DNA of 64,000 bases, from NCBI RefSeq assembly GCF_004362895.1, contig NZ_SNXI01000001.1, forward strand, positions 310,001 through 374,000, in the 5' to 3' direction. Positions 53,014-63,895 of this stretch are shown here, in pieces; positions within the stretch are counted from its first letter, which is position 1; every line of letters starts with the position of its first letter. The DNA is from Idiomarina aquatica. GTDB lineage: Bacteria > Pseudomonadota > Gammaproteobacteria > Enterobacterales > Alteromonadaceae. Under the pieces are notes generated by a model. The model did no database searches. It had not been told where the DNA came from and saw nothing but the letters and a program-made list of their open reading frames with translations. Made by a program: the position numbers and the translations under genes.

Positions 53014-53550
53014 CTAGCGTTTTCCGATGTAGAGCGTTATTTCACCCACTGGAATACCGAATTTGTACATTTTGGTGCGGTTGATCATGTTGTCTTCGTC
53101 GATCAAGTACATCCAGTCATCCAGGCTCAATGCCATCGTGCTACCGTCGTCCATGGTCACGTTAAGCACATATTGCCAGTTAAGTGCATTACCCGCTGTT
53201 GTGCCAACCGCTACGCCTTCAACGTCGCTAGCTCGCCCTTCGTAGGTATTGGGACCGGTTTTGGTTAGTTTCCATATCCGTTCCTGAGTGCTGCCGTCAG
53301 CGTAATAGAATTGCTCGTCCAACGTACCTTCGTTGCCATCCCAGGTGCCGACCATCTCGACCCGAAAGCGTTGAATAACATCATCCGAATAGTCTTGTAC
53401 CGTACCATAGGCAACCAGTTCACCACTAAAAAATTCTTCCAGTTGCAACTTGGGTTCCCGCCCCTGGTAATCATCGATGCTGGTAGAGCAAGCTGTAAGC
53501 CCAAGCGTGGTTACAAAAATAACAGCAAAACGTTTGAATAACTGACTCAT
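53014..53550 (-). CDS. DUF3833 lipoprotein
   Basis: A 178-residue DUF3833 protein with a lipoprotein signal (LGLTACSTS, lipidated cysteine near residue 21) and family text LQLEEFFSGELVAYGTVQDYSDDV, FYYADGSTQERIWKL and LNWQYVLNVTMDDGSTMALSLDDWMY. Likely anchored to the outer membrane, facing the periplasm. It is the last coupled gene of the photolyase-cfa operon, overlapping its upstream neighbour by 4 nt. Function unknown; homologues keep company with cfa and DUF1365 genes. Confidence 0.88.
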   Translation of the reverse strand: MSQLFKRFAVIFVTTLGLTACSTSIDDYQGREPKLQLEEFFSGELVAYGTVQDYSDDVIQRFRVEMVGTWDGNEGTLDEQFYYADGSTQERIWKLTKTGPNTYEGRASDVEGVAVGTTAGNALNWQYVLNVTMDDGSTMALSLDDWMYLIDEDNMINRTKMYKFGIPVGEITLYIGKR

Positions 53551-54086
53551 GAGGATGCTCCTGTTAGCTCATCACGCTCGTCTTCATAGCGCGACTCGGG
53601 CGATAACCAAATCGCTAAAAACTGTTCGGTAAAGGTGGAATTCTCGATCGTTCCCAGCAACTTATCGCCCTGGTAAAAGTCTGCATGGCCGTCTTCGTTT
53701 TCAACCAATGCCAGACAATCCCCTTCTTTTATATTGGGCCAAATTTGGTTAAGCGTATCTAACCACTGTTGCTGATCTTGGTGAGCAAATCCGAGGCGTT
53801 GCCATTCTTCGGCTGTCTTATCAACCAAGTCCGCGACCTTGATGTCGCGTAGATAATCTAACACCAATGTTTTGCGCTGCTGTTTTCTTTGCTGCCAGTC
53901 AAAGTCGCCACTGTTCGTAAACAAGCGGGCATCGTAAACATCCCAAAACAGCACGCTCAGTCGAGTTTCGCCTACTCTATTTTGATCTTTGGGCACCGCA
54001 CTATCGCAATCACTGGCAAACGCCAGCGACGGTGTAAACGCCAGAGCCAACGCTATTGCAAGACTTGATTTAATCAATCGATTCAT
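53547..54086 (-). CDS. chalcone-isomerase-like periplasmic protein
   Basis: A 179-residue protein with a cleavable signal (about residues 1-24, ending LAFA). The mature part has VGETRLSVLFWDVYDARLFT and LVLDYLRDIKVADLVDKTAEEW, the pattern of the chalcone isomerase-like domain found in bacterial fatty-acid-binding-type proteins. The plant enzyme's activity is not implied; the fold is known to bind fatty acids. It overlaps the genes on both sides by 4 nt. Confidence 0.85.
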   Translation of the reverse strand: MNRLIKSSLAIALALAFTPSLAFASDCDSAVPKDQNRVGETRLSVLFWDVYDARLFTNSGDFDWQQRKQQRKTLVLDYLRDIKVADLVDKTAEEWQRLGFAHQDQQQWLDTLNQIWPNIKEGDCLALVENEDGHADFYQGDKLLGTIENSTFTEQFLAIWLSPESRYEDERDELTGASS

Positions 54087-54592
54087 AACACTAACCTCTC
54101 GTTGTCACCGGCTTTCAGCGCACGACAAAAAAACAACATAAACAACGCCCAGACAATGGCATAGGTCACTATCAGCTGAATAACCGAATCACTGGTGCCG
54201 GCACCAAAACTGACGCCAACCCAGTAACTGAAAGGGCCGGATATAGCTCCCGCCAACGCCGCTATTGCCGGTTTTTCGGCAAGCCAGTCTAACGACAGCG
54301 GTGCCATTGCAGCAAAGCCGACCCATAAGAACGCCAGCCATAGCGGGAACAAACCGCCAGTAAAGTCTATGGTGCCCAGCCCCGTCGCTATAGCTTCGAG
54401 TAAAAGTCCCACCGCCAGCAGTTGTAAAATAAGCCGTAACCGGATTTTGGCGACAAATAAGCTGTAAACAATTTGCACAACAACCAAAGCAGCGGTCAGC
54501 CAAATGTAATCCGCTCGTCCTGCAACCGCGGACATCCACAACACGTTAAAAATGACGAATGCGGCAATCTTGTGCTTCAATGAATCACTCAT
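54083..54592 (-). CDS. DUF2878 inner-membrane protein
   Basis: A 169-residue hydrophobic protein with about five membrane helices (first at residues 10-25; others near 30-47, 52-68, 80-97 and 130-160). The family is DUF2878, judged from ILWMSAVAGRAD near the start and from its constant place after cfa in this cluster. It could hold or deliver the lipid substrate of the neighbouring enzymes; no function is established. Overlaps cfa by 8 nt. Confidence 0.8.
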   Translation of the reverse strand: MSDSLKHKIAAFVIFNVLWMSAVAGRADYIWLTAALVVVQIVYSLFVAKIRLRLILQLLAVGLLLEAIATGLGTIDFTGGLFPLWLAFLWVGFAAMAPLSLDWLAEKPAIAALAGAISGPFSYWVGVSFGAGTSDSVIQLIVTYAIVWALFMLFFCRALKAGDNERLVL

Positions 54593-55823
54593 AACGCCCT
54601 TTACTTGCTGTTAACTGAACAACCGAAACGGACTCTTCTAAAAATCCGCCCTGGCAATAACTAAAGTAGTAGTTCCACAAACGCGAGAAACGTTCGTCAT
54701 AGCCCAGGGGCTCCAACTCAGCTCGCTTGCTGTTAAAGGCTATTTGCCAACGCTTGAGGGTTTCGGCGTAACTCTTCCCCATATCCTGAACGTTACGAAC
54801 AACCATCTGTGTTTGCGTCTTATAGAGCTGCGACATCAGCTGTATCGACGGCAAAAAGCCACCAGGGAATATATGTTTTTGAATAAAATCAACCGAGCGT
54901 GAATAACTGTTATAGCGCTGATCGGCGATGGTTATAGCCTGTAATGCCATGATGCCACCCGGTTTCAACCTGTCGTTACAGGTCTTAAAAAACGTCGGTA
55001 AATATTGTTTGCCCACAGCCTCTATCATTTCGACTGATACCAGCTTGTCATACTGACCGGTTAAGTCCCGATAATCCTCTTTCAACAGAGTAATACGGTT
55101 TTCCAGCCCTTCGGCTTTTACCCGTTGCTGAGCATACTGATATTGCTCTTCAGAAATGGTCGTGGTGGTCACGTGGCAGCCATAGTGTTTTGCGGCATAA
55201 ATAGCCAAGCCCCCCCACCCGGTGCCAATTTCTAACAGGCTATCGGTGGGCTGCAGATCCAATTCACGACACAAACGATCAAGTTTTTGCTCCTGCGCTT
55301 GCTGCAAGCTGTCGTCTTCTGACAAAAACAACGCGCTCGAATACTGCATGTGCGGATCTAAAAACCGTTTATACAGTTCGTTACCCAAGTCGTAGTGCGC
55401 GGAAATATTCTTTTTTGCTTGTTGCTTGTGATTGCGATTGGCCCAATGATTAATCTTATTAATTGGAAAGGTTAGCCAGGCAATACGTGACTCAAGCTTG
55501 TCTAAAGCCGGTAAATTGCGGGCAAAGATCTGAATGACCGCGGTTAGGTCGTTGGTATCCCAGGTTTTATCAATGTAAAGTTCAGCAGCGCCAATACTGC
55601 CGCCCACTAACAGTCCACGATAAAAGCCCGGCTTTTTAACGTCGATCTCTGCACGCAGGTCGCTATGTTTTTGACCAAACTGGGCAACCATGCGCCCTTG
55701 TTCTGTTAAAACCAGCGTACCGTACTGCAGATGGCTCAGTATTTTCATCGCCAGGCTGCGAAATAACTTGTCCATGCCTTTAAATTCAAAAGGTGCCGTT
55801 AGCGCACTCTCACCATTTGCCAT
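54585..55823 (-). CDS. cfa: cyclopropane-fatty-acyl-phospholipid synthase family methyltransferase
   Basis: SAM-dependent enzyme acting on unsaturated acyl chains of membrane phospholipids. The 412-residue protein has the N-terminal CFA domain, SAHYDLGNELYKRFLD, the SAM loop LLEIGTGWGG (residues 196-205), LLKEDYRDLTGQYDKLVSVEMIEAVG, and FIQKHIFPGGFLP with the conserved aromatic residues. The next-door FAD oxidase suggests an extra oxidation or desaturation step, so the product may not be a simple cyclopropane. Preceded by a 59-nt gap with a CGTGTT/AACACG dyad. Confidence 0.93.
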   Translation of the reverse strand: MANGESALTAPFEFKGMDKLFRSLAMKILSHLQYGTLVLTEQGRMVAQFGQKHSDLRAEIDVKKPGFYRGLLVGGSIGAAELYIDKTWDTNDLTAVIQIFARNLPALDKLESRIAWLTFPINKINHWANRNHKQQAKKNISAHYDLGNELYKRFLDPHMQYSSALFLSEDDSLQQAQEQKLDRLCRELDLQPTDSLLEIGTGWGGLAIYAAKHYGCHVTTTTISEEQYQYAQQRVKAEGLENRITLLKEDYRDLTGQYDKLVSVEMIEAVGKQYLPTFFKTCNDRLKPGGIMALQAITIADQRYNSYSRSVDFIQKHIFPGGFLPSIQLMSQLYKTQTQMVVRNVQDMGKSYAETLKRWQIAFNSKRAELEPLGYDERFSRLWNYYFSYCQGGFLEESVSVVQLTASKGRYE

Positions 55824-55882
55824 GGTTTTTTCCTCTTGTATAACAGCTCGTGTTAAAACACGTATCGTTTTAAATAAAGTGT

Positions 55883-56602
55883 TTAGGGATGGCCATAAAA
55901 TGGTGTGCGTTTTACAAACAGCTTAAGTGCCTGCCAGTAAATACCGCCGATAATTTTTGCTGCCATCACCGGTGTTGTTTTAATTACGCGCTTAATCTGT
56001 TCTCGGTTTAACGGCGAACGCGATAATTTCATACCGGCGACAAAGTCTTTTTGCTCGGTTTCTGCCGCTAGTTGTATAAAACAATCGTCTTGCGGCGGAT
56101 TGATCTTCCAGCGGTAGGTCATATCAAGCGGGTTAAAAGGTGAAACGTGAAATGCTTTTTGCGTGGTTGCGTCTGGTTTGGCGAGATCCACCAGATAATA
56201 ATGGCGTTCTAACCAGGGCGTGTTACTGACTTCAGCTAACATCATGGTGTACTCACCATCTTGTTGCAGAAAATAAAAGTTAACCGGACTGAAAAACAGC
56301 CCGAATGTGCGAATGTTGCCCATAAAGAACACTCGCCCCTGCAACGTCTGCCCGGCAAGCTTAGACATTTTACTTAATGCCGCCTGCTGTAAATCGCCGG
56401 TTTCGTCTTTCAGGTAGTCTTTGCGCCTAAACCACAGCGGTGCGAAACCTTGAGTCGAAAACCAACGCGACTCGCTGTGAGCTTGCTCTAGCTCATCCAG
56501 TGCAATAAACCACTGCATAAAGCGGTAGTTAAAGGTGTGTTGCGTGGGGCGATAGCGCTGATGAAACACATCGCCCCAGTAGATACCGCTACTCAACGCC
56601 AT
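55883..56602 (-). CDS. DUF1365 protein
   Basis: A 239-residue protein of the DUF1365 family, nearly always encoded between an FAD amine oxidase and cfa. Visible family text: GDVFHQRYRPTQHTFNYRFM, LGRVFFMGNIR-like QGRVFFMGNIRTFG, FSPVNFYFLQQDG, AEVSNTPWLERHYYLVD and KAFHVSPFNPLDMTYRW. No signal peptide. Histidine and aspartate conservation hints at enzymatic activity, but none has been proven to my knowledge. It overlaps the oxidase gene by 14 nt. Confidence 0.9.
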   Translation of the reverse strand: MALSSGIYWGDVFHQRYRPTQHTFNYRFMQWFIALDELEQAHSESRWFSTQGFAPLWFRRKDYLKDETGDLQQAALSKMSKLAGQTLQGRVFFMGNIRTFGLFFSPVNFYFLQQDGEYTMMLAEVSNTPWLERHYYLVDLAKPDATTQKAFHVSPFNPLDMTYRWKINPPQDDCFIQLAAETEQKDFVAGMKLSRSPLNREQIKRVIKTTPVMAAKIIGGIYWQALKLFVKRTPFYGHP

Positions 56603-57881
56603 CTTCGTACTCGTTATTGATCGCTAAACTGGGGTCAATACGATTAACCACGTCGATGGCACTGCGAACACCATCCTCGTGAAAACCGTTATACCAGTAC
56701 GCACCACAATAATGCGTATGTCTTTGACCACAAATCTTATCTCTTTGTTCACGTGCACGTAGCGACGGAATCGAATATTGCGGATGATCGTAACTAAACC
56801 GGCGAATAACCTTTGCCGGATCAATCGCTGCAGTATTATTAAGCGTAACGCACAATGTCTGCTCGGTACGCAAACCCTGCAGAATATTCATGTTGTAAGT
56901 AACTGAACTGGGTTTGCTCGCCGCGTCACCCTCCGTGCGCAGCAAGTAATTCCAACTTGCCCAGGCCAGCCGTTTTTTCGGTAGTAGTCGGGTGTCAGTG
57001 TGCAGCACAACGTCATTGGGCTGATAATCGATAGCGCCGAGTATCTCCTGCTCATCATCACTGGCATCACCCAATAGCCGCAGTGCCTGATCACTGTGCG
57101 CAGCAATCACGACTTCGTCAAAATATTCGCTTTTACCATCACTAAATTTAATCTGCACCTGTTCTTGTTGACGACAGATTTGGCTAATGTCGGTAGAAAG
57201 ATGCACACGTTCGGCATAAGGTTTAGTTAGCGCCGGAATATAAGACTTAGAGCCCCCGTTAATGGTATGCCATTGAGGACGGTCGGCGATATTCAACAAG
57301 CCGTGGTTTTGGAAAAAACGTAAGAAGAAACCTAACGGAAACTGCTCTGCATCCTCGATACTGGACGACCAGATTGCTGAAATCATGGGTAACAAATACA
57401 GACGCGCAACTTCGTCTGACACCTTAAGCTCGCCTAAAAATTCACCCAGTGTTTTCTGATCAACGTCTTCGCCGTTCTCTAACGCGGCTTTAGCGGCATT
57501 ATTAAACTTAACGATACCGCTCAACAATTTGTAAAAGCGCGGCTTCAGCAGATTGCTGCGCTGCGCAAACAAGGTGTTAAGAGTATGGCCGTTGTATTCA
57601 AGACCCGAACGTGGGTCAGTAACACTAAAGCTCATCTCTGTGTCACGCCAGTTAACCTGCAATTCACGCAACAGGCGTTTAAAGCGCGGATAGGTTTTAT
57701 CGTTAAATACGATAAAGCCAGTATCAACGGGCACTGTCTGGTTGCCAACCTTAATATCGACGGTGGCAGTGTGACCGCCGATGTAATCGTTCTTGTCAAA
57801 AACCGTAACGTCGTGCTTTTTACTCAAATAATACGCCGCGGTCAGGCCCGCGATACCACTACCAACAACTGCAATTTTCAT
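56589..57881 (-). CDS. FAD-dependent amine-oxidase-like protein (desaturase candidate)
   Basis: A 430-residue flavin amine oxidase/phytoene-desaturase-fold protein: FAD motif VVGSGIAGLTAAYYLS (residues 5-20), DKNDYIGGHTATVD, DTGFIVFNDKTYPRF and the C-terminal AYWYNGFHEDGVRSAIDVVNRI. Homologues in Rhodobacter sphaeroides belong to the sigma-E/ChrR regulon and have been linked to dehydrogenation of modified fatty acids on the way to furan fatty acids (recalled, not checked). Substrate here is inferred from cfa and DUF1365 being next to it. Confidence 0.88.
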   Translation of the reverse strand: MKIAVVGSGIAGLTAAYYLSKKHDVTVFDKNDYIGGHTATVDIKVGNQTVPVDTGFIVFNDKTYPRFKRLLRELQVNWRDTEMSFSVTDPRSGLEYNGHTLNTLFAQRSNLLKPRFYKLLSGIVKFNNAAKAALENGEDVDQKTLGEFLGELKVSDEVARLYLLPMISAIWSSSIEDAEQFPLGFFLRFFQNHGLLNIADRPQWHTINGGSKSYIPALTKPYAERVHLSTDISQICRQQEQVQIKFSDGKSEYFDEVVIAAHSDQALRLLGDASDDEQEILGAIDYQPNDVVLHTDTRLLPKKRLAWASWNYLLRTEGDAASKPSSVTYNMNILQGLRTEQTLCVTLNNTAAIDPAKVIRRFSYDHPQYSIPSLRAREQRDKICGQRHTHYCGAYWYNGFHEDGVRSAIDVVNRIDPSLAINNEYEDGVE

Positions 57882-57898
57882 TCGCTCAATTTTCCTTG

Positions 57899-58627
57899 CT
57901 AAGAGTTCTTTGCCATACGCCGTGATAAGGCGATTTGCATTCCTTGCGGCAACAACGACATAACCCGTAACATGCCACTAAATAACGCGGGAAAACCAAT
58001 ATCCCGTTTGCCTTTTTCAATACCCTTGCGAATAGCCTTGGAGGCAAATTCGACACTCACCCGCATTGGCATTTCAAAATCATTGGCGTCAGTCATGGGT
58101 GTTTTTACAAAACCCGGCGACACGCCAAGTACGTCAATGCCATAGGCTTCTTTTAAATCGACTTCTAAGGTGCGGGTAATATATTGAATAGCGGCTTTCG
58201 AACCACCATATGCCTGTGCTTTGGTAAACGGCAATAGCCGTGCCAGGCTACCGACAATGACCAACTTACTGCCCTCAGGCATGATCGGCAACAATGCTTC
58301 CACAGTATTCATGGTGCCAAACACGTTTACACGAAATACACGCTCAAACATACCTGCATCAAACTGTTTTACGTCAAGGTATTCACACATACCGGCACTC
58401 AAAATGGCTAAGTCGACACGTTCGATATCGGCAAGTGCCTGTTTTGTGTTTTCGATATCAGTAATGTCGAAGCGCAGCGTTTTGATACTATCCCGATCAA
58501 TATCGGCTAACTCATCCAATGCCTCTTGATTGCGTCCACAAGCAATCACCGTATGCCCTTGTTTGGCATAATCTTGCGCCAGTTGGTAACCGATCCCGGA
58601 GGTGGCCCCTGTTATTAATATCTTCAT
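57899..58627 (-). CDS. short-chain dehydrogenase/reductase
   Basis: A 242-residue SDR with TGATSGIG (residues 6-13), AILSAGMCEYLD, the catalytic serine in IVGSLARLLP, the YxxxK pair in AYGGSKAAIQY and VSPGFVKTPMT. The C-terminus is basic and hydrophobic (MSLLPQGMQIALSRRM), suggesting contact with the membrane. Equivalent SDR genes are part of sigma-E/ChrR-linked clusters elsewhere. Substrate unknown. It overlaps the SnoaL-like gene by 4 nt. Confidence 0.9.
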   Translation of the reverse strand: MKILITGATSGIGYQLAQDYAKQGHTVIACGRNQEALDELADIDRDSIKTLRFDITDIENTKQALADIERVDLAILSAGMCEYLDVKQFDAGMFERVFRVNVFGTMNTVEALLPIMPEGSKLVIVGSLARLLPFTKAQAYGGSKAAIQYITRTLEVDLKEAYGIDVLGVSPGFVKTPMTDANDFEMPMRVSVEFASKAIRKGIEKGKRDIGFPALFSGMLRVMSLLPQGMQIALSRRMAKNS

Positions 58628-59061
58628 GAGTCCGCCACTAATCGGTTTTTGATTTTGTCGATCACGTAGCCTACTAAAGGCACGTGTTCATACAACATTG
58701 CCCCTAAGTCGTAATGATCCTGTTGTTCGCGAATTTTTCCGTCCTCAAACGTTAAATATGAGACGCCCGGCAGCACGATCTCCATGCCATTTCCCAGTTT
58801 GGGATGCGCAAAACGCATCTGCCACAGCAAAAAAGCTTTGTCTTCTCCGACACACTCATCGTCAAAGGCAAAATGACAGTATTCCACGTTTTCCATGGTG
58901 TGTTCGAAATACTTTTTGAGATCGTCCAGACCCACCACCTGATGGATGGGATCGGTTAAGCTGGCGTTATCGTGATACATGTCATCCAGCTGGTCCAGAT
59001 TGTCTGTTTTAAACTCGTCATAAAACGACTTCAATTTATCGACTAGTTCTTGGTTATCCAT
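58624..59061 (-). CDS. SnoaL/NTF2-like protein
   Basis: A 145-residue cone-fold protein: LKSFYDEFKTDNLDQLDDMYHDNASLTDPIHQ at the start, AFLLWQMRFAHPKLGNGMEIVLPGVSYLTFEDGKI in the middle, and the REQQDHYDLGAMLYEHVPLVG end shared with proteins beside photolyase and SDR genes. The fold serves as hydroxylase, isomerase or simple ligand-binding module; which applies here cannot be said. Overlaps phrB by 8 nt and the SDR gene by 4 nt. Confidence 0.85.
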   Translation of the reverse strand: MDNQELVDKLKSFYDEFKTDNLDQLDDMYHDNASLTDPIHQVVGLDDLKKYFEHTMENVEYCHFAFDDECVGEDKAFLLWQMRFAHPKLGNGMEIVLPGVSYLTFEDGKIREQQDHYDLGAMLYEHVPLVGYVIDKIKNRLVADS

Positions 59062-60472
59062 TTTTCACCTGCTTAAAAGTTGTTAAAAACCGTTCCCGAG
59101 CAGCACTATGGTCCACGATAGGTGCGGCATAATCCTGTTGATTGCGCTGCTTTAACCAAGAATGCGGCCAATAAATGTGTTTGGTCGGGACATCTTTTAA
59201 CTCGTCTATCCATTTACGGATGTAGCTACCGTCGGGATCAAACTTCTCGCTTTGCCGAATGGGATTAAACACCCGAAAATAAGGCACCGCATCAGTACCT
59301 ACCGATGCACTCCACTGCCAGCCACCGTTATTCGCTGGAAAGCTGCCATCGATCAGGTTTTGCATAAAATACTGTTCGCCTTTGCGCCAATCGATAAGCA
59401 GATCTTTAACCAAAAAGTTTGCCGTAATCATGCGCAATCGATTATGCATCCAGCCGGTCTGATTAAGCTGCCGCATACCCGCGTCGACAATCGGATAACC
59501 CGTACGTCCCTCACACCAGCGTTTAAAATCATCTTCAGCATCACGCCAGGGCACGCCCTGGGTTTGCTTCTGATAATTTTCTCCACGGCTCAGGCGCGGT
59601 TCAAAAAACATCAGGTGTTGGTAAAATTCGCGCCACGCGAGTTCAGTTAGCCAGGTATCTGCTCCCTTTTCTAAGCCGTGAGGAAAAGACGGCGAAAGCG
59701 ACTGTAGATTGCGTGCCAGCGTTTTAGGCGAAACCACGCCAAGCTCAAGGTAAGCCGACAGTTTTGACGTGCCCTCGATTGCGGGTTTGTCACGTTGCTC
59801 GTGGTAGTCAGCGAGGCTATGACCGACAAACTGACCAAACTTACTCAGCACGCTCTGCTCGCCCACCGGCCAATCGCTACTGGTGTCGGTGCAAGGTGCA
59901 GGACAGTCCGGGATTTGTGGCGTATCGCTAACCGTTGTTTGCTTTGCTGTTGGTTGAGTCAGTTGCCAATCGGTATGCTCTGCTAATACCTTGCGCCAGG
60001 CTTTATTAAACGGCGTAAACACTTTGTAGTAATCGCCCTGCTGGGTTTTCACCTGACCCGGCGGAACCAATAATAATCCGTGCTTTATTATTGTCGTGAC
60101 ATTGTGATGTTTTAAAGCAACTTCAACAGCCTTATCACGACGCGCCTCATGGACCGGGTATTCGGCGTTAAAATAGACTTCGTTAACTCCATTTTCAGCG
60201 CAGAAATCAGAAATAATAGAGCCTGATTGAGAAAATGTATCATGACACTTAACTTTTAGTAATACCCCGCTTGCCGCTAAATCTTGCTGTAATTGCTGCA
60301 GGTGACGCCATAGCAAATCGGTTTTCCGGGGTGACCAAAAATGCGTATCGACAAAGGTTGTTTTGGGGAATAGATATAGTGCGTAAACTTTGTCGTGCTC
60401 CGCACAGGCTTGCGCTAACGCCGGATTATCCTGAATTCGCAAGTCATTACGAAACCATACCAATGCTGCCAT
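59054..60472 (-). CDS. phrB: deoxyribodipyrimidine photolyase (class I CPD)
   Basis: Light-driven repair of cyclobutane pyrimidine dimers, with FAD and an antenna chromophore. The 472-residue protein has the N-terminal antenna domain (ALVWFRNDLRIQDNPALA), and a FAD-binding C-terminal domain with TWLTELAWREFYQHLM, GRTGYPIVDAGMRQL, TGWMHNRLRMITANFL and WQWSASVGTDAVPYFR. The tryptophans of the electron-transfer chain appear to be present. Its stop overlaps the SnoaL-like gene, so repair and lipid genes share one transcript. Confidence 0.95.
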   Translation of the reverse strand: MAALVWFRNDLRIQDNPALAQACAEHDKVYALYLFPKTTFVDTHFWSPRKTDLLWRHLQQLQQDLAASGVLLKVKCHDTFSQSGSIISDFCAENGVNEVYFNAEYPVHEARRDKAVEVALKHHNVTTIIKHGLLLVPPGQVKTQQGDYYKVFTPFNKAWRKVLAEHTDWQLTQPTAKQTTVSDTPQIPDCPAPCTDTSSDWPVGEQSVLSKFGQFVGHSLADYHEQRDKPAIEGTSKLSAYLELGVVSPKTLARNLQSLSPSFPHGLEKGADTWLTELAWREFYQHLMFFEPRLSRGENYQKQTQGVPWRDAEDDFKRWCEGRTGYPIVDAGMRQLNQTGWMHNRLRMITANFLVKDLLIDWRKGEQYFMQNLIDGSFPANNGGWQWSASVGTDAVPYFRVFNPIRQSEKFDPDGSYIRKWIDELKDVPTKHIYWPHSWLKQRNQQDYAAPIVDHSAARERFLTTFKQVKNG

Positions 60473-60482
60473 AATGACTCCT

Positions 60483-61427
60483 TTACAGTCCGTAACGTAG
60501 CTTTAAATCTTCAGGGTATGGCTGGATATACCACTGCTGGGCTAGATAGTCGTTGGGAAACTCGCGCAAATAATGGCGGATTAACGTCAGCGGCGCCATA
60601 ATCGGCAAGATGCCATCGTGATACTGCAATATCATCTCTGACAATTCCTGTTTTTGTTGTGCGCTAAGCTGGCCTTTAAAATAGCCCTGAATATGCTGCA
60701 ACGTATTAGTATGGTTGCGCTTAGAAGCAGGCTCCGACAGTGCCTGCATTACGTCAATAATGTACTGTTGAGCGAAGGCTTCGTCTATTTTTTCAGCCTC
60801 ACCCAAACGTTTACCAAGCTCGCGATAAGCCGGCTGATCATGCGCTAAAAGCAGCAGCTTACAGCGGGTATGAAAATCCAGTAGTGCTTTTTTGGTTATC
60901 GGCTTTGGCAACGCTTGCCAATGACCATAAACCCAAACGCGCAGGATAAAGTTTTCACGCAAGTGCGGGTCGTTTAGCCGGCCGTCTTCTTCCAGCGGCA
61001 ATGCCGGATTAAGCTCGCGCAAACGCGCAGCAAAAATACCCATCGCCTCTTTTTGGGCATGTCCTGTATCCGGGTCATAGAGTTTTACCCGCTCCATGCC
61101 GCAACTCGGTGACTTTGCGCACAATACGTAACCGCTCAACTGTTGTGCTTTGAGTTGAATTTTATCCGCAAAATCGCTTAACTTCTGGGTAACGTTGGCA
61201 CCCGTTTTCGGAATTACCGCATGGACGTCGTTATCGTGCTTTTCCAGACGGATGGTTGGCCGTGGAATCGGTAAGCCGATCCCAACTTCAGGGCAAAAAC
61301 GTACAAACTCGACATGACGCGACAATTCGTCATCGCAAAAGGCCGAACGTTTATGGCCGCCATCAAAACGCACTTCATCGCCTAATAAACAGGCGCTAAT
61401 ACCCACGGTTAATTTTTTTGTATTCAT
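60483..61427 (-). CDS. DUF523-DUF1722 fusion protein (YbgA type)
   Basis: A 314-residue two-domain protein. The N-terminal DUF523 part (to about residue 160) has cysteines in ISACLLGDEVRFDGGHK, RFCPEVGIGLPIPRP and CAKSPSCGMERV; in the thiouracil desulfurase TudS such cysteines hold an Fe-S cluster. The C-terminal DUF1722 part ends in YHDGILPIMAPLTLIRHYL and is related to E. coli YbgA, encoded next to phrB. It lies 10 nt before phrB and is therefore probably the first gene of the operon. Confidence 0.9.
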   Translation of the reverse strand: MNTKKLTVGISACLLGDEVRFDGGHKRSAFCDDELSRHVEFVRFCPEVGIGLPIPRPTIRLEKHDNDVHAVIPKTGANVTQKLSDFADKIQLKAQQLSGYVLCAKSPSCGMERVKLYDPDTGHAQKEAMGIFAARLRELNPALPLEEDGRLNDPHLRENFILRVWVYGHWQALPKPITKKALLDFHTRCKLLLLAHDQPAYRELGKRLGEAEKIDEAFAQQYIIDVMQALSEPASKRNHTNTLQHIQGYFKGQLSAQQKQELSEMILQYHDGILPIMAPLTLIRHYLREFPNDYLAQQWYIQPYPEDLKLRYGL

Positions 61428-61581
61428 CAGTTACGTCCAGTATTTACTGCTCCAATAAACCTGTCCTTTATAACGTATTACAGTGAAGAAAAGTTTGCCG
61501 ATTAACAAATTATTCAGATCCAACTAATTGTGCATTGCGTAACACTTTACAACTCAATCAAAACAATGGCAGTTAGGTAAT

Positions 61582-62160
61582 ATGACGCAGTACGAAGAAC
61601 TACCGCTATTTCCTTTGACAGCTCATGTGCTGCCGGAAGGTCGTTTACGCTTGCGCATTTTCGAGCCACGTTATACCCGTCTGGTGAAACGCTGTATGTC
61701 GGAGCAATCCGACTTCGTCATTTGTATGTTTGACCCAAACCAAAGTAAAGAAACGGAAAATTACATTTTGCCGTTCGGGACGGCTGTCCAAATCATTGAT
61801 TTTGAAATGCTGGACGATGGCTTTCTGGGCATAACCGTTGAAGGTAAAGACCGAGTTCATATACACGACCACCACGTCGAAAGTGATGGTTTAAACCTGG
61901 GTCACGTTGAGCGCCTGCCTGCCTGGCCAAATAAAGCGCTTTCTTCAGACAAAATTGTTCTAAAAGAGCGGCTGGAAGAGATCTTTCAGGTCTATCCGGA
62001 ACTGGCTAACCTATATCAGGACGAACGTTTTGACGAGCTTAGTTGGCTTTGCCAACGCTGGCTTGAGATATTGCCGCTGGATGTACACGCCAAGCAACAA
62101 CTTATAAAGGCAGATAATCCTCTTGAGGTTTCTGAATATCTGCTACAATTAGTCTCGTAG
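61582..62160 (+). CDS. LON substrate-binding-domain protein
   Basis: A 192-residue stand-alone Lon N-terminal domain, without ATPase or protease. Family text: LPLFPLTAHVLPEGRLRLRIFEPRY, MFDPNQSKETENY, GTAVQIIDFEMLDDGFLGITVEG, and the C-terminal helical SWLCQRWLEILPLD. Such proteins may deliver substrates to Lon or to a ubiquitin-like system, but the function is not established. It diverges from the photolyase operon and is read toward rpoE, 89 nt away. Confidence 0.9.
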   Translation: MTQYEELPLFPLTAHVLPEGRLRLRIFEPRYTRLVKRCMSEQSDFVICMFDPNQSKETENYILPFGTAVQIIDFEMLDDGFLGITVEGKDRVHIHDHHVESDGLNLGHVERLPAWPNKALSSDKIVLKERLEEIFQVYPELANLYQDERFDELSWLCQRWLEILPLDVHAKQQLIKADNPLEVSEYLLQLVS

Positions 62161-62182
62161 TTACCATTTTTTCTGACGTTGG

Positions 62183-62210
62183 TGATCCAGTGACTACAGG
62201 ATTACGTTCA
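62183..62210 (+). promoter_or_regulatory. candidate ECF (RpoE/ChrR-type) promoter before rpoE
   Basis: TGATCC (62183-62188) is identical to the -35 element of sigma-E (ECF11) promoters of the ChrR type. Sixteen bases later comes CGTTCA (62205-62210); the expected -10 has CGTA. It lies about 40 nt upstream of the rpoE start, consistent with autoregulation. One base of the -10 core differs. Confidence 0.5.
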
Positions 62211-62249
62211 TACTAAGACAACACGCAACAAAAATATGCAGGTCTAATT

Positions 62250-62870
62250 ATGCAAGTGACGTCAGAGAGAACTTCGCAACGGGGCGTTATGAATACAACC
62301 CAACAAGACACTGCCGAGAAGGCAGCTGAGCTTCTTGCTAAAGTAGCAGAGACTCGTAGCAGAGCTGCATTTAGTGAGTTGTTTAGCCATTTTGCTCCCA
62401 AGCTGCAGGCCTATGGCACACGTCAGTTTGGCAACGAGCAAACCGCGATGGATTTGGTACAAGAAACGATGACTAATGTCTGGCACAAAGCACATTTGTT
62501 TAAACCAGACCGTGGTTCTCCGTCCACTTGGATATTCACGATCGCGCGCAACATTCGTTTCGATTTGTTACGTAAGAATAAAAAGCGCAAGGACGATATC
62601 AGTGCCGACGAACTTTGGCCTATCCTTGCTGAACAGAATGATAATTTAGATGACGGTTATGCCTTAGATAACGATGTACTAATGCAAGAAATCGCTCATT
62701 ATTACGCTCAATTACCTGACCCACAACGGGTGGTGGTTGAAAAAATTTACATCGAAGGCAAGTCACAGCAAGAAGTATCGGATTCGTTAGGCATTCCGTT
62801 AGGTACTGTGAAGTCTCGTACCCGACTGGCATTGAAAAAGTTAAAAGAGCTGATTGTAGAACATGATTAA
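62250..62870 (+). CDS. rpoE: ECF RNA polymerase sigma factor, ChrR-partner type
   Basis: A 206-residue group IV sigma factor: region 2 (LFSHFAPKLQAYGTRQF, then AMDLVQETMTNVWHKA and WIFTIARNIRFDLLRK) and region 4 (LPDPQRVVVEKIYIEGKSQQEVSDSLGIPLGTVKSRTRLAL). It is paired with and overlaps chrR by 8 nt, which identifies it as the ECF11 type that answers singlet oxygen, not the envelope-stress RpoE of E. coli. ATG at 62250 has GCAGG upstream; an internal ATG at 62289 behind GGGG is an alternative. Confidence 0.93.
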   Translation: MQVTSERTSQRGVMNTTQQDTAEKAAELLAKVAETRSRAAFSELFSHFAPKLQAYGTRQFGNEQTAMDLVQETMTNVWHKAHLFKPDRGSPSTWIFTIARNIRFDLLRKNKKRKDDISADELWPILAEQNDNLDDGYALDNDVLMQEIAHYYAQLPDPQRVVVEKIYIEGKSQQEVSDSLGIPLGTVKSRTRLALKKLKELIVEHD

Positions 62871-63558
62871 ATCCCATCCTAGCGAAGCTATCCTGTATCA
62901 GTACGCGTCAGGTGACTTGAGTGCGGCTATGACATTAGTGGTTGGCACCCATGTTGATATGTGCTCGGTTTGTCAGCAAACCGTTTGTGAGATAGAACAC
63001 GACTTGTGCTCTAAGCATCTTGACACTGTTGTGCAGACCTTAAACACACCGAGTCATGGCTATAGTGGCCTGAGCAAAACCGATACCGATAAGATGCTGG
63101 AAAAGATCTTTTCGTCGGAGGCTAAGCCTGCAGTTCAGCCAGACGAGCTAATTTGCCTTGAAGGCCGTCGTTTTGTGTTACCCCGTACGTTGGCACACAA
63201 TCGTGCTCGTATCGGCGACTGGACTAATTTGGTTGGTAAGCTATGGCGTGCGCCCATTGATGTCGGTGACCGTGGCCACACTAACCTTATCTATATGGAG
63301 CCCGGTACACAGGTACCTGAGCATACGCACAAGGGACAGGAAGCAACGCTAGTGGTTGATGGCGTATTTAATGACGAGAAAGACGTTTACTATAACGGCG
63401 ACTTTATCTTGTTAGATGCGGATCGTACTCACACGCCGCAAACATCGGCGCAGGATTGTCTGACATTGGCTACCCTGGATGCCCCACTTTACTTTACGTC
63501 GGGTATCAGTCGTTTGTTGAATCCATTTAGTAGTTTATTCTTTAGGGCGTCGGCGTGA
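62863..63558 (+). CDS. chrR: zinc anti-sigma factor ChrR
   Basis: Cupin-type anti-sigma factor that holds RpoE until singlet oxygen triggers its release. The 231-residue protein has an N-terminal zinc anti-sigma domain with H5, H30, C34 and C37 (HxxxCxxC in THVDMCSVC), and a C-terminal cupin domain with PGTQVPEHTHKGQEATLVVDG whose histidines and glutamate bind a second metal. Both zinc sites seen in the Rhodobacter protein appear intact. Confidence 0.93.
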   Translation: MIKSHPSEAILYQYASGDLSAAMTLVVGTHVDMCSVCQQTVCEIEHDLCSKHLDTVVQTLNTPSHGYSGLSKTDTDKMLEKIFSSEAKPAVQPDELICLEGRRFVLPRTLAHNRARIGDWTNLVGKLWRAPIDVGDRGHTNLIYMEPGTQVPEHTHKGQEATLVVDGVFNDEKDVYYNGDFILLDADRTHTPQTSAQDCLTLATLDAPLYFTSGISRLLNPFSSLFFRASA

Positions 63559-63587: not shown

Positions 63588-63614
63588 AAAACCCGAGGTT
63601 AATCCTCGGGTTTT
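63588..63614. terminator. bidirectional terminator between chrR and ihfA
   Basis: AAAACCCGAGG, loop TTAAT, CCTCGGGTTTT: an 11-bp stem with T-runs on both strands. The ihfA stop codon (63599-63601) lies in the loop. Confidence 0.92.
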
Positions 63615-63895
63615 GCATTTTCTACACGGCTTTTAAATTTTTGGCCGGGTTTAAACGTAACCACCCGCCGCGCCTTAATGGGAATATCTTCCCCCGTTTT
63701 TGGATTGCGGCCGGGTCGTTGACTTTTGGTACGTAACTCGAAGTTGCCAAAACCTGACAACTTAACCTGGTCACCGGCTTCTAAAACAGAACGTATCTCC
63801 TCGAAAAAGTCCTCTACCAGCGTTTTTGCATCCTGCTTATTGATGCCGTGCTTTTCAAAGAGCATTTCCGCCAATTCTGCTTTAGTCAGCGCCAT
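63599..63895 (-). CDS. ihfA: integration host factor subunit alpha
   Basis: Alpha subunit of the DNA-bending IHF heterodimer. The 98-residue protein reads [23 protein letters not shown], then [26 protein letters not shown] (with the intercalating proline) and the C-terminal [15 protein letters not shown]. It begins 3 nt after pheT, the universal gammaproteobacterial order, and has a terminator built over its stop codon. The beta gene is 45 kb away in this window. Confidence 0.98.

Follow-up and report, generated by a model that had tools for sequence, protein, structure and literature searches.

Gene content of the island

The stretch of DNA analyzed here, hereafter the window, comprises 64,000 nucleotides (nt) of the Idiomarina aquatica genome (contig NZ_SNXI01000001.1, positions 310,001 to 374,000) and carries, at positions 53014-63558, an island in which a photolyase gene and a set of lipid genes lie beside an extracytoplasmic function (ECF) sigma factor and its ChrR-type anti-sigma factor. 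Our main subject is a sequence element inside the photolyase gene, phr, which is a candidate promoter for the neighboring sigma factor (sigmaE, encoded by rpoE). Gene families were assigned with Pfam and NCBIfam profiles (Table 1). Ten genes form a minus-strand operon running from 61427 to 53014, in the order ybgA-like, phr, SnoaL, short-chain dehydrogenase/reductase (SDR), UfaD-like, UfaO-like/DUF1365, UfaM-like, DUF2878, Chalcone_3, and DUF3833; six of its nine junctions overlap and the remaining three are gaps of 10, 17, and 59 nt. The genes LON, rpoE, and chrR lie alongside on the plus strand. A preliminary description of this DNA had already recognized the ten-gene operon with its photolyase, flavin adenine dinucleotide (FAD)-dependent, DUF1365, and Cfa-like genes, all of which are present, and had not mentioned the LON-domain gene that sits between the operon and rpoE-chrR.

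The ChrR-family anti-sigma factor is encoded directly after the ECF sigma factor, and the two genes overlap by 8 bases, an overlap likewise described for rpoE2 and chrR of Shewanella, where the LON-domain gene is an RpoE2 target (PMC4336711). Aligned to ChrR of Rhodobacter sphaeroides (2z2s; positions compared by eye), the window protein has identical residues at the eight zinc ligands listed for that protein (PMC6852236), four in the anti-sigma domain and four in the cupin domain. Judging from these ligands and from a TIGR02451 score over the cut-off, rpoE-chrR is a true ECF11 sigma/ChrR pair, as the preliminary description had held in calling the ligands intact. Among the matches listed, no other protein of the genome passes the ChrR-family cut-off; there are three further Cupin_7 matches (C21, C10), two of them in tandem on C10.

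The island is conserved well beyond the window. In a cross-table of 147 family genomes, compiled by hand, UfaO and ChrR (over the cut-off) occur together in 129, neither occurs in 17, and UfaO occurs alone in one (G247). Sixty family loci were fetched around UfaO, hand-picked from 130 UfaO genomes and mostly representing one or a few per genus, and 20 class loci were likewise hand-picked out of 68 class genomes with DUF1365. Within the 18.5-20 kb stretches of the family loci, rpoE-chrR is present in 54 of 60, divergent from the operon in 34 and pointing in the same direction in 20; in these co-directional loci it stands directly 5' of ybgA. UfaD, UfaO, and UfaM are all encoded in 58 of the 60, LON in 50, and phr in 33. 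This co-occurrence and linkage imply that the arrangement of the island is not due to chance and that the lipid genes are tied to ChrR across the family.

A candidate promoter inside the photolyase gene

To score potential sigmaE sites, a weight matrix was derived from 71 sites found 5' of LON and rpoE in relatives and applied, with a spacer of 16 only, to 127,940 window positions. The best of all these positions, at 17.9, lies inside phr, with its -35 at 59240-59235 and its -10 at 59218-59213, over the codons F-D-P-D-G-S-Y-I-R-K. The exact TGATCC-N16-CGTA part spans 59240-59215 on the minus strand, and the element lies 179 nt 5' of the SnoaL start codon, in the same direction as the operon. 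The intergenic boxes 5' of LON and rpoE also rank among the top sites (Table 1), the latter with one mismatch within the scored ten bases of TGATCC-N16-CGTA. In the whole 2.95 Mb genome the exact pattern occurs twice, one occurrence being the phr site, and a reversed control pattern once. The preliminary description had proposed that the island serves one light-stress response. The ECF11 pair, the Ufa families, and the family-wide co-occurrence and linkage with ChrR agree with this proposal, but the operon is not evidently a single sigmaE unit, because the best box before ybgA-phr reaches 8.2 bits (rank 30 in the window) and the strongest box lies inside phr. Searches of open-access literature brought up no published case of a sigmaE element embedded in a photolyase gene.

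The 16-nt spacing was fixed after the Shewanella promoter table, and the case is built on this fixed spacing and on the comparison across genomes. A looser scan (TGATC-N17..20-CGTA) recovered only the phr site, with 1.47 expected by chance, and proves nothing alone. A genome-wide prediction in the host gave 11 sites versus 4 with a control pattern, too few and too weak to extend the regulon. As for the region upstream of ybgA, the window and four other loci (L068, L069, L070, L086) have in common a CAAAC[TC]-N16-CGT sequence, near to but not matching the sigmaE -35, which could be a weaker sigmaE promoter or the site of another sigma factor.

Comparison across photolyase genes

The photolyase alignment drew on 149 loci plus the window and contained 108 frames, of which 107 were kept after dropping a duplicate genome (L205, the same as L144). 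The order-level phr loci were 30 from a search (one of them the window's own) and 40 hand-picked, out of 129 matching genomes. We call a phr gene operonic when SnoaL, SDR, UfaD, or UfaO lies no more than 1500 nt downstream of it and on its strand; phr genes in the 80 UfaO-anchored loci are operonic mostly through selection. ChrR states were entered by hand for the paired and group tests. The exact element is found in 53 of the 70 operonic phr genes versus 0 of the 37 others (Fisher 8e-16). Divided by ChrR, it is present in 52/61 operonic genes with ChrR and 1/9 without, and in 0/18 other genes with ChrR and 0/19 without. The 53 exact genes have 51 different 16-nt spacers. The codon after the Arg of the motif starts with A in 57/61 operonic genes with ChrR, versus 1/9, 5/18, and 4/19 in the other groups, and where the first motif residue changes from F to V or Y, as in some genes, the T is retained.

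These contrasts bear on an alternative explanation, namely that the operon is a single transcript, made from a ybgA promoter or by read-through from rpoE-chrR, and that the match in phr is a by-product of the FDPxGx[FY]IRK peptide and codon bias. This peptide is able to encode the element, the position of rpoE-chrR directly before ybgA in co-directional loci would permit read-through, and in Shewanella oneidensis a sigmaE box before ybgA could drive the whole operon (PMC4336711). Nevertheless, the amino acids together with the codon usage of the individual genes predict 7.3 exact matches among the 70 operonic genes against the 53 observed (genes treated as independent). Most of the non-operonic genes, none of which is exact, encode a similar peptide, and both the single exact site among the nine operonic genes of genomes lacking ChrR and the T retained where F is replaced by V or Y speak against a by-product. 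We consider this alternative unlikely.

In G247 (locus L104), the sole family genome with UfaO and without ChrR, the -10 is changed to CGTC. Four operonic genes with ChrR have one-mismatch sites (L075, L155, L191, L241), and L144 has no internal site and instead an exact intergenic box 98 nt before SnoaL. Several loci without phr before the lipid genes have a sigmaE-like box 30-88 nt before SnoaL, with one mismatch each in L077, L085, L089, L090, L098, and L145; because boxes precede SnoaL in such loci, the comparison suggests that the lipid module keeps its own promoter wherever it is placed. In three loci (L154-L156), which have no linked rpoE-chrR or SDR, an exact TGATCC-N16-CGTA lies within UfaO, 110-122 nt before its end and upstream of UfaM. 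Another possible internal site, TGAACC-N16-CGTAT in UfaO, did not hold up as a general feature, no UfaO column being unusually slow.

Codon constraint in the element

Synonymous changes were counted among the 61 operonic genes with ChrR on a photolyase tree built with the motif columns left out. The third position of Arg419 changed 3 times, versus 22-28 times at 11 other conserved Arg columns, that of Asp412 twice, versus 10-23 times at 8 others, and that of Phe411 3 times, versus 6-16 times at 10 others. These are the three slowest of 114 testable third-position columns. Seven other genes of the cluster, with 33-60 family rows each, supplied further control columns: all but one of the 406 Arg-class columns show at least 0.22 changes per gene, and the exception, chrR codon 2 (0.06), shares bases with the stop codon of rpoE and is an unplanned positive control. 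The value for Arg419 is 0.05 (3 changes in 59). By codon expectation, tree counts, and columns of other genes, the synonymous positions in the element are conserved beyond protein constraint, and their slowness relative to comparable columns again runs counter to the by-product explanation.

The codons might be conserved for some other reason, such as a translational pause close to the FAD-binding region, Dam methylation of GATC, an RNA element, or binding of another regulator. TGATCC does contain GATC, and the evidence at hand is one of sequence conservation alone. However, the conserved bases match the -35 and -10, likewise 16 nt apart, of the promoters that the adjacent sigma factor itself is predicted to use, and in the group counts their conservation tracks operon context and ChrR, the codons not being kept in the non-operonic photolyases compared. 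Such other causes seem to us very improbable, and we infer that the element in phr initiates transcription.

Distribution and weight of the evidence

A scan of species genomes used the element in its codon context, a pattern that largely ensures that matches fall in phr, and returned at least 117 matches, all of them in phr. Among the matches listed, 87 are followed by lipid genes, in Pseudoalteromonas, Shewanella, Colwellia, Idiomarina, Aeromonas, Thalassotalea, Photobacterium, Vibrio, and others, including one alphaproteobacterium, and 8 are too close to the end of their stretch for the neighbors to be judged. Outside the class, a replication set of 72 loci from genomes placed in the same phylum gave 76 photolyase rows; 29 of these were dropped because the motif expression had no match, 13 of them with lipid genes behind, and two loci (L388, L392) are of the window's own family and present in more than one row. 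In other classes of the phylum (L365-L434), many genomes have ufaD or ufaM immediately after phr, so that photolyase and furan-fatty-acid genes are linked there too, nearly always without the internal site. Since the site is nearly absent outside the class even in such an arrangement, it is, as far as these genomes indicate, mainly a gammaproteobacterial feature.

We think it likely that the phr gene of many marine and aquatic gammaproteobacteria, including species of Idiomarina, Pseudoalteromonas, Colwellia, Shewanella, Vibrio, Photobacterium, and Aeromonas, is a dual-purpose sequence, in which the codons of FDPxGx[FY]IR also serve a furan-fatty-acid operon as its sigmaE promoter, the control of membrane protection thereby constraining codons and even one amino acid of a DNA-repair enzyme.

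Several observations weigh against this interpretation. Five operonic genes with ChrR have two or more mismatches (L144, L156, L200, L229, L238), although three of the five have another candidate near the end of phr (those of L200 and L238 with one mismatch), and G418, operonic and without detected ChrR, retains the exact site. Of the matches listed in the species scan, 22 are followed by other or no recognized genes, nine of them being phr genes of Serratia or Acinetobacter, as might be expected of a by-product. In the replication set, the 19 judged rows with lipid genes behind include only one exact site (L255) and one with a single mismatch (L400), and an alphaproteobacterium (L247) has the site and no lipid genes behind it. 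Two-fold columns elsewhere are slow too (0.06 for YbgA Glu146 and 0.07 for YbgA Phe21, compared with 0.05 for Phe411), so that Phe411 alone is unremarkable and the case rests mainly on Arg419. Five paired tests gave on average 1.3 to 4.5 pairs in the expected direction and 0.0 in the opposite one, with a median p of 0.125 to 1, and in the one-mismatch version a few random pairings gave one pair against. These tests are not decisive because operon context has switched independently few times on the tree and, since none of them reaches 0.05, the contrast between groups is partly shared ancestry. Finally, a second promoter may exist besides the internal one, because S. oneidensis is reported to have a promoter before ybgA (PMC4336711) and L071, a relative of the window, has a 12.9-bit ybgA box.

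Probable genes for furan fatty acids

In R. sphaeroides the FAD protein UfaD (RSP1091), the DUF1365 protein UfaO (RSP1090), and the methylase UfaM are all required for the furan fatty acid 9M5-FuFA (PMC7380195). All three families stand side by side in the window, whose FAD, DUF1365, and CMAS genes belong to the UfaD, UfaO, and UfaM families (PMC7380195); this supports the preliminary description, which had pointed to furan fatty acid synthesis for the oxidase-like and Cfa-like members. The window proteins have 40, 31, and 40% identity, respectively, to their counterparts in the alphaproteobacterial phr-ufaD-ufaO-ufaM operon of L255. The CMAS protein scores 282.2 bits on the Cfa model, whose cut-off is 400, and another gene of the genome scores 624.4 bits; these scores favor its identification as UfaM, distinct from the true Cfa of the genome.

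Alternatively, the CMAS protein might be a conventional cyclopropane fatty acid synthase, with cyclopropane rather than furan fatty acids as the product of the cluster. The protein does belong to the CMAS family, its homologues in V. cholerae and S. oneidensis carry the annotation cfa (PMC5241685, PMC4336711), and a Halomonas UfaM expressed in Escherichia coli gave cyclic acids besides 11-methyl-octadecenoate (PMC12089945). The scores just given argue otherwise, as does the contiguity of the gene with the UfaO and UfaD families, an arrangement shared with Rhodopseudomonas palustris and Halomonas, and this possibility appears fairly unlikely. The lipid product is probably a furan fatty acid.

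The last three genes of the operon, DUF2878, Chalcone_3, and DUF3833, travel as a group: 23 of the 60 family loci have all three together, 19 of them at the operon's 3' end and 4 upstream of LON-rpoE-chrR; examples of their placement are the window (53014-54592), L147, L148, L152, and L153. Sequence features judged by eye suggest the inner membrane for DUF2878, the periplasm for Chalcone_3, and the outer membrane for DUF3833, whose lipobox Cys21 is invariant across 21 aligned proteins; the trio may handle the modified lipids there, in periplasm and outer membrane. A sequence search of the PDB at E 0.1 found no relative of the Chalcone_3 and DUF3833 proteins.

Proposed mechanism and comparison with known systems

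We regard it as very likely that the locus is a sigmaE-ChrR (ECF11) photo-oxidative stress regulon whose lipid genes are transcribed from a promoter embedded in phr. ChrR would hold sigmaE until singlet oxygen or related oxidants cause its loss, as known in R. sphaeroides. Free sigmaE would then transcribe rpoE-chrR and the LON gene from their intergenic boxes and, from the element inside phr, SnoaL-SDR-ufaD-ufaO-ufaM, possibly together with DUF2878-Chalcone_3-DUF3833. UfaM, UfaD, and UfaO would probably convert cis-vaccenoyl phospholipids to furan fatty acids, which, as known for R. sphaeroides, would act as scavengers of singlet oxygen and exert feedback on the turnover of ChrR. If this is true, the protective-lipid genes would be inducible by singlet oxygen independently of the photolyase.

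The closest published parallel is S. oneidensis MR-1, which has rpoE2-chrR with an overlapping ATGATTAA, the LON gene SO_1987, and a ybgA-phrB-...-cfa operon (SO_3386-SO_3374), with TGATCC-N16-CGTAAT boxes (PMC4336711). In this non-phototroph, SO_3386, which heads the corresponding operon, was transcribed more strongly when RpoE2 was expressed (PMC4336711). Unlike in the window, its operon and rpoE2-chrR have distant locus numbers, and the sole promoter tabulated for the operon lies before ybgA, with no mention of "intragenic" in the available text (PMC4336711), whereas the window has no good ybgA box. A ChrR/sigmaE response has also been published for Vibrio cholerae, likewise a non-phototroph, in which photolyase genes are under ChrR/sigmaE and the cfa-like VC1122 is up in blue light; there, the locus numbers of the photolyase genes and rpoE-chrR are far from VC1122 and an extra MerR regulator is involved (PMC5241685, PMC11976125). 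The UfaD, UfaO (DUF1365), and UfaM families are shared with R. sphaeroides and R. palustris (PMC7380195), where the operon partners differ and, in the available text of the reports, the SnoaL, DUF2878, Chalcone_3, and DUF3833 genes are not mentioned (PMC7380195, PMC6852236). R. sphaeroides makes more furan product without ChrR (PMC7380195, PMC6852236), and the core sigmaE-ChrR regulon is reported to span alpha- and gammaproteobacteria (PMC6852236). The light-stress idea of the preliminary description is thus plausible and not new, since the regulon has been published in S. oneidensis, in V. cholerae, and as this shared core. The island is of a known kind, and the embedded promoter appears to be its new part.

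The embedded promoter would refine the picture of how a widespread light response is controlled, in that the lipid branch could own a sigmaE promoter that ordinary upstream scans would miss, since it lies inside a repair gene. It would also be an instance, spread widely over the phylogeny, of protein sequence being shaped by a regulatory signal. Fitzgerald et al. (2018) reportedly described conserved intragenic FliA promoters, for example within flhC, as alternative-sigma promoters that constrain the codons of their host genes; unlike these, the window element belongs to the ECF11 sigma class and has another host gene and regulon. Two questions also become open to direct testing: which genes of gammaproteobacteria are responsible for furan fatty acids, and whether DNA repair and lipid protection are turned on separately.

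Coordinates and neighboring gene

Table 1. Genes and predicted sigmaE sites of the island (window coordinates)
Feature	Position	Strand	Basis
ybgA-like (2-thiour_desulf + DUF1722), operon gene 1	60483..61427	-	domain profiles
phr, class I cyclobutane pyrimidine dimer (CPD) photolyase, likely dual-purpose sequence	59054..60472	-	NF007955 538.2 bits, cut-off 506
SnoaL_2 / NTF2-like protein, first gene 3' of intragenic element	58624..59061	-	domain profile
SDR	57899..58627	-	domain profiles
UfaD-like FAD-dependent fatty acid desaturase (amine-oxidase-like)	56589..57881	-	domain profile; 40% identity to L255 protein
UfaO-like DUF1365 protein, putative O2-dependent furan-forming enzyme	55883..56602	-	domain profile; UfaO family per PMC7380195
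UfaM-like S-adenosylmethionine (SAM)-dependent fatty acyl methyltransferase (CMAS)	54585..55823	-	282.2 bits vs Cfa cut-off 400
DUF2878 protein, hydrophobic, probably inner membrane (by eye)	54083..54592	-	domain profile
Chalcone_3 (chalcone isomerase-like) protein, Sec signal peptide (by eye)	53547..54086	-	domain profile
DUF3833 putative outer-membrane lipoprotein, lipobox LTAC (by eye)	53014..53550	-	domain profile
LON substrate-binding-domain protein, SO_1987-like	61582..62160	+	domain profile; PMC4336711
rpoE, ECF11-type sigma factor	62250..62870	+	domain profiles
chrR, zinc anti-sigma factor, overlaps rpoE stop codon	62863..63558	+	TIGR02451 174.1 bits, cut-off 124.5
Candidate intragenic sigmaE (ECF11) element, TGATCC-N16-CGTAAA	59213..59240	-	top of window matrix scan
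Predicted sigmaE site 5' of LON, AGATCC-N16-CGTAAC	61516..61543	+	rank 2 in window matrix scan, 15.7
Predicted sigmaE autoregulatory site 5' of rpoE, TGATCC-N16-CGTTCA	62183..62210	+	rank 4, 14.7
Weak, possibly alternative promoter 5' of ybgA, CAAACT-N16-CGTTAT	61470..61497	-	window matrix scan

Beyond the island, an HU-type gene (63599-63895) lies 3' of chrR in the window, as it does in ten relatives (L067-L075, L086).

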